Below, piece by piece: positions 40,836 through 43,410 of a stretch of 64,000 nt of DNA (the stretch's first letter is position 1; each line of letters starts with the position of its first letter). The notes below the pieces were generated by a model, which saw nothing but the letters and a program-made list of their open reading frames with translations, did no database searches and was not told the DNA's origin. The DNA lies in contig NZ_CP139304.1 in the NCBI RefSeq assembly GCF_034092415.1, positions 1,348,001-1,412,000 of the forward strand, given 5' to 3'. The position numbers and the translations under genes were made by a program. This stretch comes from Prochlorococcus sp. MIT 1341. Lineage in GTDB: Bacteria; Cyanobacteriota; Cyanobacteriia; PCC-6307; Cyanobiaceae.

Positions 40836-40973
40836 AACTTCTTGATTGATTAACAGGCGTTCTTTCGAGCCTATGTCTTTGGGGATCAATTATGTTTGAT
40901 AGTTAGCTCTATAGCTTTTCTCAGCCAAAAAGATGATTGCATTTCAACAACTGAATTGGTTCCTTTAAAGAAT

Positions 40974-41951
40974 ATGATCGATACCTCTTCCTCTGAGACT
41001 GAAAAAATAAACGAAGTATGGGTTGTGGCGGCTTGTTGGAATGAAGAAGCCGTTATATGTCAATTTATTGAAAGGGTGCTTTTACGTCCTGATGTTGCTG
41101 GATTGGTTTTAGTTGATGATGGCTCTACTGATTCGACATTGGAGAGGGTTAGACAGTGGCAGAAAAAATCTGGAGACCAAAAAAATGTTAAAAAGGTTGT
41201 TCTGATTGAATTGACTCGAAATTTTGGGAAAGAGGCAGCAATGCTTGCTGGACTTGATTTTGCGAAAGATTTCTCTGAAGCAGTTGTTTTGATCGATTCT
41301 GATTTACAGCATCCTCCAGAGTTAATTGATGAGATGGTAATAGCATGGCGCTCTGGAGCAGAAATCGTTACTGCGGTAAGGGATGATCGTGATCAAGAGT
41401 CGCTTTTTAAGATAACTAGTGCTGCCTGGTTTTATAAGATTTTTAATCGACTTGTAGATTCTGTTCAACTGATTGAAGGTGCTGGAGACTATCGACTACT
41501 TAGTGCTCCTGTTGTTGAAGCTCTTACGACAATGAGGGAGTTTGGGCGATTTTCAAAAGGGTTAGTTCCTTGGACTGGATATCGGAGCTTTGAGATTAGC
41601 TATAAAAGAGTTATACGTTCTGGAGGTGTTTCTTCGTGGAGCCCTATAAAATTATTTAGTTATGCATTAGATGGAATTTTTTCGTTTTCAGTATTACCTT
41701 TAAAGATTTGGACTTTTCTAGGGATTACAGTCTCATTTGTTAGTTTGATTTATGCATTATTAGTGATTCTACGTACAATTGTTCAGGGAATTGATGTACC
41801 AGGATACGCTTCATTGATAGTCGCTGTTTTATTTCTTGGAGGGATCCAACTCATAGGAATAGGCGTTTTAGGTGATTATATTGGAAGGGTATATGTTGCT
41901 GCAAGAGCAAGACCTCATTACTTTATTCGGCACATATATAATATAGATTAA
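40974..41951 (+). CDS. Family 2 glycosyltransferase, polyprenyl-phosphate sugar transferase type
   Basis: 325-residue protein of the DPM1/GtrB type. The catalytic GT-A domain has AACWNEEAVI, LVLVDDGSTDSTLE, a DxD in VLIDSDLQHPPELI, and GAGDYRLLSAPVVEAL of the dolichol-phosphate mannose synthase group. Two C-terminal hydrophobic segments (KIWTFLGITVSFVSLIYALL and a second near PGYASLIVAVLFLGGIQLIG) anchor it in the membrane. It is expected to move a sugar from a nucleotide to undecaprenyl phosphate; the sugar is unknown. ATG at 40974 is chosen over a TTG at 40896. It converges on the GtrA-YdjC fusion with a 9-bp gap. Confidence 0.88.
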   Translation: MIDTSSSETEKINEVWVVAACWNEEAVICQFIERVLLRPDVAGLVLVDDGSTDSTLERVRQWQKKSGDQKNVKKVVLIELTRNFGKEAAMLAGLDFAKDFSEAVVLIDSDLQHPPELIDEMVIAWRSGAEIVTAVRDDRDQESLFKITSAAWFYKIFNRLVDSVQLIEGAGDYRLLSAPVVEALTTMREFGRFSKGLVPWTGYRSFEISYKRVIRSGGVSSWSPIKLFSYALDGIFSFSVLPLKIWTFLGITVSFVSLIYALLVILRTIVQGIDVPGYASLIVAVLFLGGIQLIGIGVLGDYIGRVYVAARARPHYFIRHIYNID

Positions 41952-41960
41952 CTATATAGT

Positions 41961-43250
41961 CTAATTACTTGATTCTTTCATAAGGATAAGGTCTTTCCAC
42001 TCTTTTTGTCTCCATGGAGAAGAGAAGAACTTCTGTGAATATGGGAATTCATTATGCATTCCCATACTTTCTCCAGGTTCTAAATTTGCTGCTGGATGTA
42101 CCAGAATCATAGGTTGAGTTTGCCATGGATAAACCTGAAGAATTCTTAATTCCATCCAAGCTGACTTTATTGCATTCATGCTCATTTTACCTGTGAAAAG
42201 AACACCCGAAAATCCAGCATTTGTTTTGATGTTTGCTTTTTTAATTTGATTGGATGCAAGGTTGCTAAGAACTTGAAGTGTTAGCCACTTCAAAAAACCA
42301 CCATCTACGCAACTTTTGAGGAGATTCTCAGTTGAAGTATTATTTGGTAAGGGCTCATAAGTTGTTCTAATCCATGACACATCTTCTGTCTTGGAAATTT
42401 CCAGAAGTACATCTAGAACAATTGGTATGAGATGAATATGTTGGTGCCCATCTATTGATATTGAGTCTATCTTTGTCAGCCTTTTAAACTTTTTAATTTG
42501 TGCCAATAGCTCTTTTTTTATTGCAAGTTCTATTTCTCTCCTAAGTGATGCTCTTTTTGGAAGAAAAGATGCAAATAGTAGTTTGCTAAATGTTTGATTT
42601 AAAGAGCCTTTATGATTGGAAAGCTTTCTTACTAGTCTGCTATTACTAACTGCAATCCCTTCAGTTAGAGAAATGTGTAATGTAAGTGGAATTTGTAGTT
42701 TGTTTTTCCATGCATGAATGGCTTCATTGACGGCAATTCCATTTACTAAAAGGCTTGCACTTTGAAGCGCACCAGCTTGTGCAAGAGCGAAAATAGCTTT
42801 GTTTGTTGCGTTCGTGAGTCCTAAGTCATCTGCATGAATAACAGGTGTGGACCGAGGCCTGTGAATCCTGTTAAAGCTGAATTTTGCTGCAAATGACCAG
42901 ATAAATGCATTTATCACTGTTGGTGTGAAAATAAATATCCATGCTGTTAATCGAAGTTGTTCTACCGAGGAGAGCAAGATAGGTAACAAAGTGCAGATAC
43001 TTGTATTGATGGTGAATTGAATTAGAAGCCATCTGCGCGCAAAGCGTTTACCACCAGTGGCCTTCCGAAATGTGTAAAGAGAATGACCCAGATAACTGAC
43101 TAGTGATCCACTTAAAAATCCGATTAGATTACTAGCCCACAAAGCTATCGCTTTACTAAGGATAATTAGCACTATTGCATGTGTTCCAGCAGCAAATAGT
43201 CCAACAATGGAGTACTTGGAGACCTTGACTACTCGTTCAAAAATGATCAT
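41961..43250 (-). CDS. GtrA-like membrane domain fused to YdjC/ChbG-family deacetylase
   Basis: 429-residue fusion. Residues 5-125 form a GtrA-type four-helix membrane domain (KYSIVGLFAAGTHAIVLIIL; SNLIGFLSGSLVSYLGH; FRKATGGKRFARRW), a family linked to translocating lipid-linked sugars. From about 136 a cytosolic YdjC/ChbG deacetylase domain follows, with HADDLGL (Asp 141-142), LHISLTEG (His192) and DGHQHIHLIP (His269-273), the three expected metal-ligand sites. YdjC proteins remove acetyl groups from N-acetylated sugars. ATG at 43250 is chosen; an in-frame TTG lies at 43316. Confidence 0.82.
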   Translation of the reverse strand: MIIFERVVKVSKYSIVGLFAAGTHAIVLIILSKAIALWASNLIGFLSGSLVSYLGHSLYTFRKATGGKRFARRWLLIQFTINTSICTLLPILLSSVEQLRLTAWIFIFTPTVINAFIWSFAAKFSFNRIHRPRSTPVIHADDLGLTNATNKAIFALAQAGALQSASLLVNGIAVNEAIHAWKNKLQIPLTLHISLTEGIAVSNSRLVRKLSNHKGSLNQTFSKLLFASFLPKRASLRREIELAIKKELLAQIKKFKRLTKIDSISIDGHQHIHLIPIVLDVLLEISKTEDVSWIRTTYEPLPNNTSTENLLKSCVDGGFLKWLTLQVLSNLASNQIKKANIKTNAGFSGVLFTGKMSMNAIKSAWMELRILQVYPWQTQPMILVHPAANLEPGESMGMHNEFPYSQKFFSSPWRQKEWKDLILMKESSN

Positions 43251-43410
43251 TCTTGTTGATTCTTCTTGATGGGGATTCTTGCCCTTGCGAAAAAGCTTAC
43301 TTTTAGGGTAAAACAAATTTCAAGAGATTTTTTAAGGATTTTGCTATGAATATTTGGAAGATCCTTAAACATGATATTTCCTTAGAAGCTTTTGAGGGTA
43401 GGAGAGTTTT

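Follow-up and report, generated by a model that had tools for sequence, protein, structure and literature searches.

The logic of loading a sugar onto a lipid carrier, removing an acyl group and flipping the product is already known from the Arn pathway, from NaxD/FlmF2 and from GpgSDF. The FlmF2-NaxD-FlmK system of Francisella resembles the locus described here in having a GtrB/ArnC-like GT2 glycosyltransferase and a YdjC deacetylase encoded by adjacent genes, and flmF2 and flmK have been described as neighbouring loci (PMC4688374); it differs in having no GtrA protein and no fusion, and in having lipid A phosphate as its acceptor. The Arn pathway (ArnC, ArnD, ArnEF and ArnT) follows a similar course of loading, N-acyl removal on the carrier, flipping and transfer, but ArnC has Asn at the position corresponding to residue 113 of the present GT2, which is His. 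ArnD and ArnEF belong to families other than YdjC and GtrA. The GtrA/GtrB/Gtr(type) and CsbB/GtcA/YfhO systems likewise combine a polyprenyl-phosphate GT2, a four-helix GtrA protein and a separate GT-C enzyme (PMC7389260), but they contain no deacetylase, whereas in the present module one protein unites GtrA with YdjC and the two genes are convergent. GpgSDF of Pseudomonas and HexSDF of Clostridioides also unite a glycosyltransferase, a deacetylase and a putative flippase, in one operon (PMC12713373), although these proteins (GT4, COG3233 and UPF0104) are not homologous to GT2, YdjC and GtrA, and the Pseudomonas product is GlcN-PG. HpnI-HpnK pairs a glycosyltransferase with a YdjC-family deacetylase in making a glucosaminyl hopanoid (PMC12583986) but requires hopanoids, none of which are predicted for the genome studied here.

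The window, meaning the whole stretch of 64,000 nucleotides that was analysed, comes from Prochlorococcus sp. MIT 1341 (genome size 1.94 Mb) and contains a GT2 gene facing a gene on the minus strand (41961-43250) in which the GtrA and YdjC domains share a single uninterrupted frame. The features of the locus are as follows.

40974..41951, plus strand: GtrB-type polyprenyl-phosphate GT2, 325 aa; ATG at 40974, alternative TTG at 40896; Pfam PF00535
41295..41303, plus strand: DXD motif, D108 and D110 (GtrB D94/D96), unchanged in all GT2s compared (27 linked to the fusion, 16 not); role from PMC4728340
41310..41312, plus strand: His113, three residues past DXD; Asp in GtrB, Asn in ArnC
41379..41381, plus strand: Arg136, equivalent to GtrB R122 (acceptor phosphate), invariant; mutated in PMC4728340
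41487..41489, plus strand: Asp172 in the conserved GD(F/Y)RLL, aligned to the GtrB GDFRL aspartate and conserved in the GT2 alignment
41616..41618, plus strand: Arg215, equivalent to GtrB R200 (acceptor phosphate), invariant; PMC4728340
41715..41870, plus strand: two C-terminal transmembrane segments, GT2 residues 248-266 and 281-299, by hydropathy
41961..43250, minus strand: GtrA-YdjC fusion, 429 aa; ATG at 43250, alternative TTG at 43316, stop at 41961-41963
41997..42842, minus strand: YdjC/ChbG deacetylase domain, Pfam PF04794, E=2.9e-38
42096..42098, minus strand: His385 (HP motif), invariant; aligns with the HPA motif of CmCBDA
42432..42446, minus strand: His269-x-His271-x-His273 (DGHQHIH), in 83, 82 and 82 of 83 homologues; aligns with DSHHHVH of ChbG 7vi8
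42675..42677, minus strand: His192 (LHxxLTEG motif), 83/83 homologues
42825..42830, minus strand: Asp141-Asp142 (HADD motif), 83/83 homologues
42885..43217, minus strand: GtrA domain with four transmembrane helices (residues 2-31, 37-59, 72-92 and 99-130); Pfam PF04138 and AlphaFold2

The two genes are arranged tail to tail with 9 bp separating their ends; since they are convergent they do not form one operon, and the arrangement does not imply their co-expression. Isocitrate dehydrogenase is encoded upstream of the GT2; past the fusion lie genes for a 142-aa protein of unknown function and for heme oxygenase. None of these flanking genes is an envelope gene. A preliminary description, made from the nucleotide sequence, had reported the fusion facing a GT2, a metal site formed by Asp141-142, His192 and His269-273, and two membrane segments at the C-terminus of the GT2. 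All of these were recovered: both domains score above their Pfam gathering scores in one frame (37.2 bits against 26.1 for GtrA, E=3.7e-9; 132.7 bits against 29.7 for YdjC), the metal-site residues are present in ATG numbering, and the membrane segments were found by hydropathy. A frame-shift or assembly artefact as the origin of the fusion was ruled out, as more than 80 genomes carry it at full length. The alignment of 62 homologues over both domains and the AlphaFold2 model of the whole protein built from them (mean pLDDT 93.2, pTM 0.87), in which four long helices are followed by the YdjC barrel, indicate that the fusion is more than a chance joining.

The YdjC half is the sole YdjC of the source genome, and its metal site was not lost in close homologues, the loss that the preliminary description had named as evidence against it; the residues are essentially invariant among the 83 homologues aligned, with D141, D142, H192, H269 and H385 constant and H271 and H273 each differing once. 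The best Foldseek matches of the fusion model were ChbG (7vi8), CmCBDA (8jqe and 8jqf, structures that carry Mn or Ni) and EF3048 (2i5i), each with a probability of 1.0. The GtrA half has the features of the GtrA flippase family, namely a Pfam score above the gathering score, four transmembrane helices and cytosolic ends. On average over 62 sequences, the loop joining helices 2 and 3 has a net charge of +3 and the segment that follows helix 4 one of +4, with values near zero in the two remaining loops of this half, so that by the positive-inside rule both termini of the GtrA half are predicted to be cytosolic and the YdjC domain would be cytosolic as well, the side on which a deacetylase must work ahead of flipping. 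Positions Y13, G17, N41, R73, W74, Q78, N82, N114 and W118 of the GtrA half are nearly invariant.

The GT2 matches Glycos_transf_2 (PF00535) with E=9e-21, and its closest solved relative is the GtrB protein sll0501 of Synechocystis (267 bits), which produces UndP-glucose (PMC4728340), followed by ArnC (121 bits). The structural features of a GtrB-type GT2 are present, namely a GT-A domain with DXD, the acceptor arginines and two C-terminal transmembrane helices. When the GT2s of the module (n=27) were compared with YdjC-free, GtrB-like GT2s from the same family (n=16), the catalytic residues were identical, and fixed differences near the catalytic motifs were found, among them H113 (Asp in the GT2s without YdjC), G171 and P199. 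Elsewhere in the source genome, a 436-aa open frame with many AEDRKAAxRKA-like repeats (L129:3473-4783; G000:C1:1451472-1452782) lies near another GT2 gene.

The fusion, at full or nearly full length, is carried by approximately 86 of 400 genomes of the family. Among the 400 genomes searched, 83 have both the fusion and an orthologue of the GT2, three have the fusion only and one has the GT2 only; these counts are drawn from related genomes, and the Fisher value for them ignores kinship and is not a real probability. The missing GT2 linkage that had been set beforehand as evidence against the module was thus not seen, with the GT2 present in 83 of 86 fusion genomes. The three exceptions are a contig end (G286), a genome with only a GT2 fragment (G336) and a genome (G052, L064:9589-11883) in which the same convergent position is taken by a GT2 from a different subfamily (31 % identity), which looks like a partner swap or a transfer; in a tree this GT2 clusters with those that are linked to YdjC in other phyla. 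In the both-gene genomes examined the pair was convergent every time, a contig-end case aside. The gene order of the window is common to most fusion genomes, and the linkage there could be inherited order. In four genera (g10, g25, g45 and g52) the neighbours found in the window are absent and the pair is still together and convergent, and static gene order as the sole cause of the linkage was rejected because the pair is retained at unrelated loci. One Synechococcus-type genome (G130, L070:8812-10170) has cleanly lost the YdjC domain and retains the GT2 and a 132-aa GtrA protein, and in its GT2 the GD(F/Y)RLL motif is altered to GDQLILL; this single genome suggests joint decay of the module.

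No full-length fusion was listed outside the family of the window in a search across the phylum Cyanobacteria; in the rest of the phylum YdjC stands alone. In one non-photosynthetic family of the same phylum (f31), nearly all genomes have a YdjC gene that stands by itself and encodes about 290 aa. A phage origin was rejected, a scan of viral contigs having given two matches only, both of YdjC alone. When genome contigs were scanned with the fusion alignment, fusions of full length came only from Prochlorococcus, Synechococcus, Cyanobium and Vulcanococcus, a result that covers the best 80 loci on contigs chosen for having YdjC and so does not establish absence elsewhere; an apparently full-length fusion in Herminiimonas proved to be a pair of neighbouring genes. 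Outside these genera, most of the nearest YdjC genes adjoin a GT2 gene and often a separate GtrA gene too. The three genes are colinear and unfused, in the order GT2-GtrA-YdjC, in Herminiimonas, Polynucleobacter, Psychrobacter and others, and in Legionella the YdjC gene faces GtrA-GT2. The search for further fusions and their GT2 neighbours proposed in the preliminary description thus found them in picocyanobacteria, and found the same gene set unfused in Proteobacteria. Fusions in the reverse order, YdjC-GtrA, each with a GT2 alongside, occur at two loci (L169 and L207), and GT2-YdjC fusions occur in two Deltaproteobacteria metagenome-assembled genomes (L179, 1649-3442; L182, 5242-6855), all of them confirmed with Pfam. 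The GT2 part of the latter two is of a different type, without the DXDLQ[H]P motif.

His113, which directly follows DXDLQ, was noticed post hoc in cyanobacteria and then tested on GT2s of Proteobacteria and other phyla, with all GT2s of 42 YdjC-holding genomes as within-genome controls and 16 cyanobacterial GT2s in addition. It is His in all 29 fusion-linked GT2s and in 41 of 44 GT2s beside YdjC, against four of the 44 GT2s without YdjC nearby, in which Asp (28), Asn (9) and other residues (3) make up the remainder; these counts cover related sequences and few independent changes (six by parsimony over the whole tree). Herminiimonas has one His-type GT2 beside YdjC and four Asp-type GT2s elsewhere, and the divergent GT2 of G052 is also His-type. 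In the tree the GT2s of the module form a clade (support 1.0) whose sister group is made up of cyanobacterial GtrBs of the Asp type (support 0.92), and both sit inside a broader Asp clade (support 0.99), a nesting that implies that His arose again with the YdjC linkage. In Francisella sp. SYW-9 (L175), where a YdjC gene, a His113-type GT2 gene and an ArnT-like gene are clustered in a manner like the module, the GT2 between the YdjC and ArnT-like genes has His and the GT2 beside ftsW has Asp. The pair, with genes matched by context and not by sequence, fits the published Francisella enzymes, one of the galactosamine type and one of the glucose type (PMC8306577). The link between His113 and YdjC is a correlation, and the role of this residue in donor choice is putative; as sll0501, the glucose enzyme, has Asp there, His113 argues against UDP-glucose as the donor of the present GT2. 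The amino-sugar GT2 of the preliminary description therefore stands in part: homology alone is insufficient for it, the nearest characterised enzyme being a glucose GtrB, and the argument that is left is an indirect one from the YdjC partner and the His.

The two genes probably make and export a lipid-linked amino sugar, which a separate GT-C enzyme then transfers. With a UDP-activated N-acetylhexosamine, either GlcNAc or GalNAc, as donor, the GT2 would load the sugar onto undecaprenyl phosphate at the cytosolic face of the membrane. The cytosolic YdjC half would strip the acetyl group, and the GtrA half would flip the amino sugar, still on its carrier, to the periplasmic face. A GT-C enzyme of the DUF2079 or PMT/ArnT-like type, encoded separately, would move it to a surface glycan or to some other acceptor, probably not lipid A phosphate. 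The activities of loading and deacetylation are predicted from family membership and residues, the order of the steps from topology, and the flipping from proposals made for GtrA proteins (PMC7389260); the sugar and its acceptor are likewise inferred, and GlcNAc and GalNAc are indistinguishable. The use of UDP-glucose by the nearest characterised GT2 counts against this pathway, and it is the starting point of a rival reading in which the locus is an ordinary GtrA/GtrB glucosylation system, with the GT2 making UndP-glucose, as sll0501 does (PMC4728340), and YdjC editing an unrelated N-acetylated sugar such as a peptidoglycan or chitin fragment. Chitooligosaccharide deacetylases (ChbG) do occur among YdjC proteins, but this reading is unlikely: a deacetylase is needless for glucose, yet YdjC is fused and the co-occurrence with the GT2 is near-perfect; the GT2 has fixed differences from the sll0501 type, of which H113 follows YdjC in other phyla; and unlinked GtrB-type GT2s of the same family pair with a plain GtrA and no YdjC.

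The lipid-linked amino-sugar pathway may be extended, as a tentative possibility, to an edit-then-export machine in which the deacetylase hands its product to the attached GtrA half and only the amino sugar is exported, with the His near DXD marking N-acetylhexosamine-specific polyprenyl-phosphate transferases across bacteria. A flippase role of GtrA proteins is not fully proven, the evidence for Rv3789 being conflicting (PMC7389260), and the GtrA half could be a mere membrane anchor that brings the deacetylase to the GT2, with another protein flipping the lipid; fusion to a membrane domain would raise the local concentration of a soluble deacetylase. We consider this improbable, as the GtrA half has more near-invariant positions than a bare anchor requires and in Proteobacteria GtrA is a separate gene within the same clusters.

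The preliminary description had proposed that loading, deacetylation and translocation are accomplished by a two-gene module. As a whole pathway the two genes fall short by the last enzyme, since the GT-C acceptor transferase is unlinked here and adjacent in other genera. No linked polytopic acceptor transferase was found beside the pair in the window, whereas GT-C genes adjoin the module in the four genera with relocated loci (g10, g25, g45 and g52), with DUF2079 (PF09852) beside it in L064, L065 and L066 and PMT/PMT_2 in L066 and L067. DUF2079 is present in 79 of the 86 fusion genomes, and of the seven that lack it four are from genus g45, in which the flanks are of the PMT type; it is also present in 89 genomes without the fusion and is not fusion-specific. 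In the source genome, DUF2079 and PMT genes form a cluster (C1:1,052-1,062 kb) that lies 330 kb from the pair and also neighbours a second lipid-sugar synthase, DPM1-GtrA, both points counting against the pathway proposed here. At this locus (L143:8311-17640; G000:C1:1052810-1062139) PMT-type and three DUF2079 membrane proteins surround the DPM1-GtrA fusion. In g10 and g25, the genes immediately next to the module include orthologues of several GT-C genes of this cluster. Because such orthologues and DUF2079 genes flank the module at relocated loci, DUF2079 is the best candidate for the final transferase. We know of no function assigned to DUF2079 enzymes.

A product that stays in the membrane as a free glycolipid, either an amino-sugar phospholipid or a hopanoid, with no later transfer, as in GpgSDF, HexSDF and HpnI-HpnK, has precedents in GlcN-phosphatidylglycerol made by Pseudomonas GpgSDF, which includes a putative flippase (PMC12713373), and in BHT-glucosamine from HpnI/HpnK (PMC12583986), HpnK also being the NCBIfam family that the YdjC half matches best, but it is very unlikely given that the GT2 is a member of the polyprenyl-phosphate GtrB/ArnC family and has retained the arginines for the acceptor phosphate, that the module has as neighbours in other genera genes of the GT-C class, whose enzymes use polyprenyl-phosphate sugars, and that squalene-hopene cyclase was not found in the source genome, which together with the HpnK score of 100.9 bits (cut-off 232.6) led to rejection of the hopanoid pathway. 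For the lipid-linked amino-sugar pathway, an acceptor of the Francisella type, to which the preliminary description had drawn its parallel, is unlikely as well: LpxK was not found in the source genome, and the lipid A of marine Synechococcus is without phosphate, its LPS containing some glucosamine (PMC4515613), so that lipid A phosphate is an unlikely acceptor and a surface glycan is more likely.

What appears to be new is the GtrA-YdjC fusion conserved in picocyanobacteria, the association of GT2, GtrA and YdjC across phyla, and the His marker. No paper naming GtrA and YdjC together was found in the open-access library searched; the architecture may be listed in subscription papers or in domain-architecture databases. 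No description of the predicted positively charged amino-sugar decoration of the picocyanobacterial surface was found in that library either. For galactosamine made by NaxD in Acinetobacter, the enzymes of transport and attachment have not been identified (PMC9431647); in Psychrobacter, Polynucleobacter and Legionella the YdjC and GT2 genes have a GtrA gene as neighbour, and the GT2-GtrA-YdjC linkage offers a candidate for this gap. The residue after DXD (His, Asp or Asn) would be a cheap and testable predictor of the sugar loaded by a GtrB/ArnC-type enzyme, and DUF2079 enzymes may be the acceptor transferases for polyprenyl-phosphate sugars in picocyanobacteria. Few photosynthetic organisms are as abundant as Prochlorococcus and marine Synechococcus, whose cell surface is the part that phages and grazers encounter. 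If the edit-then-export reading is true, GtrA would be the missing flippase of NaxD-type pathways and the picocyanobacteria would gain a cationic surface sugar.
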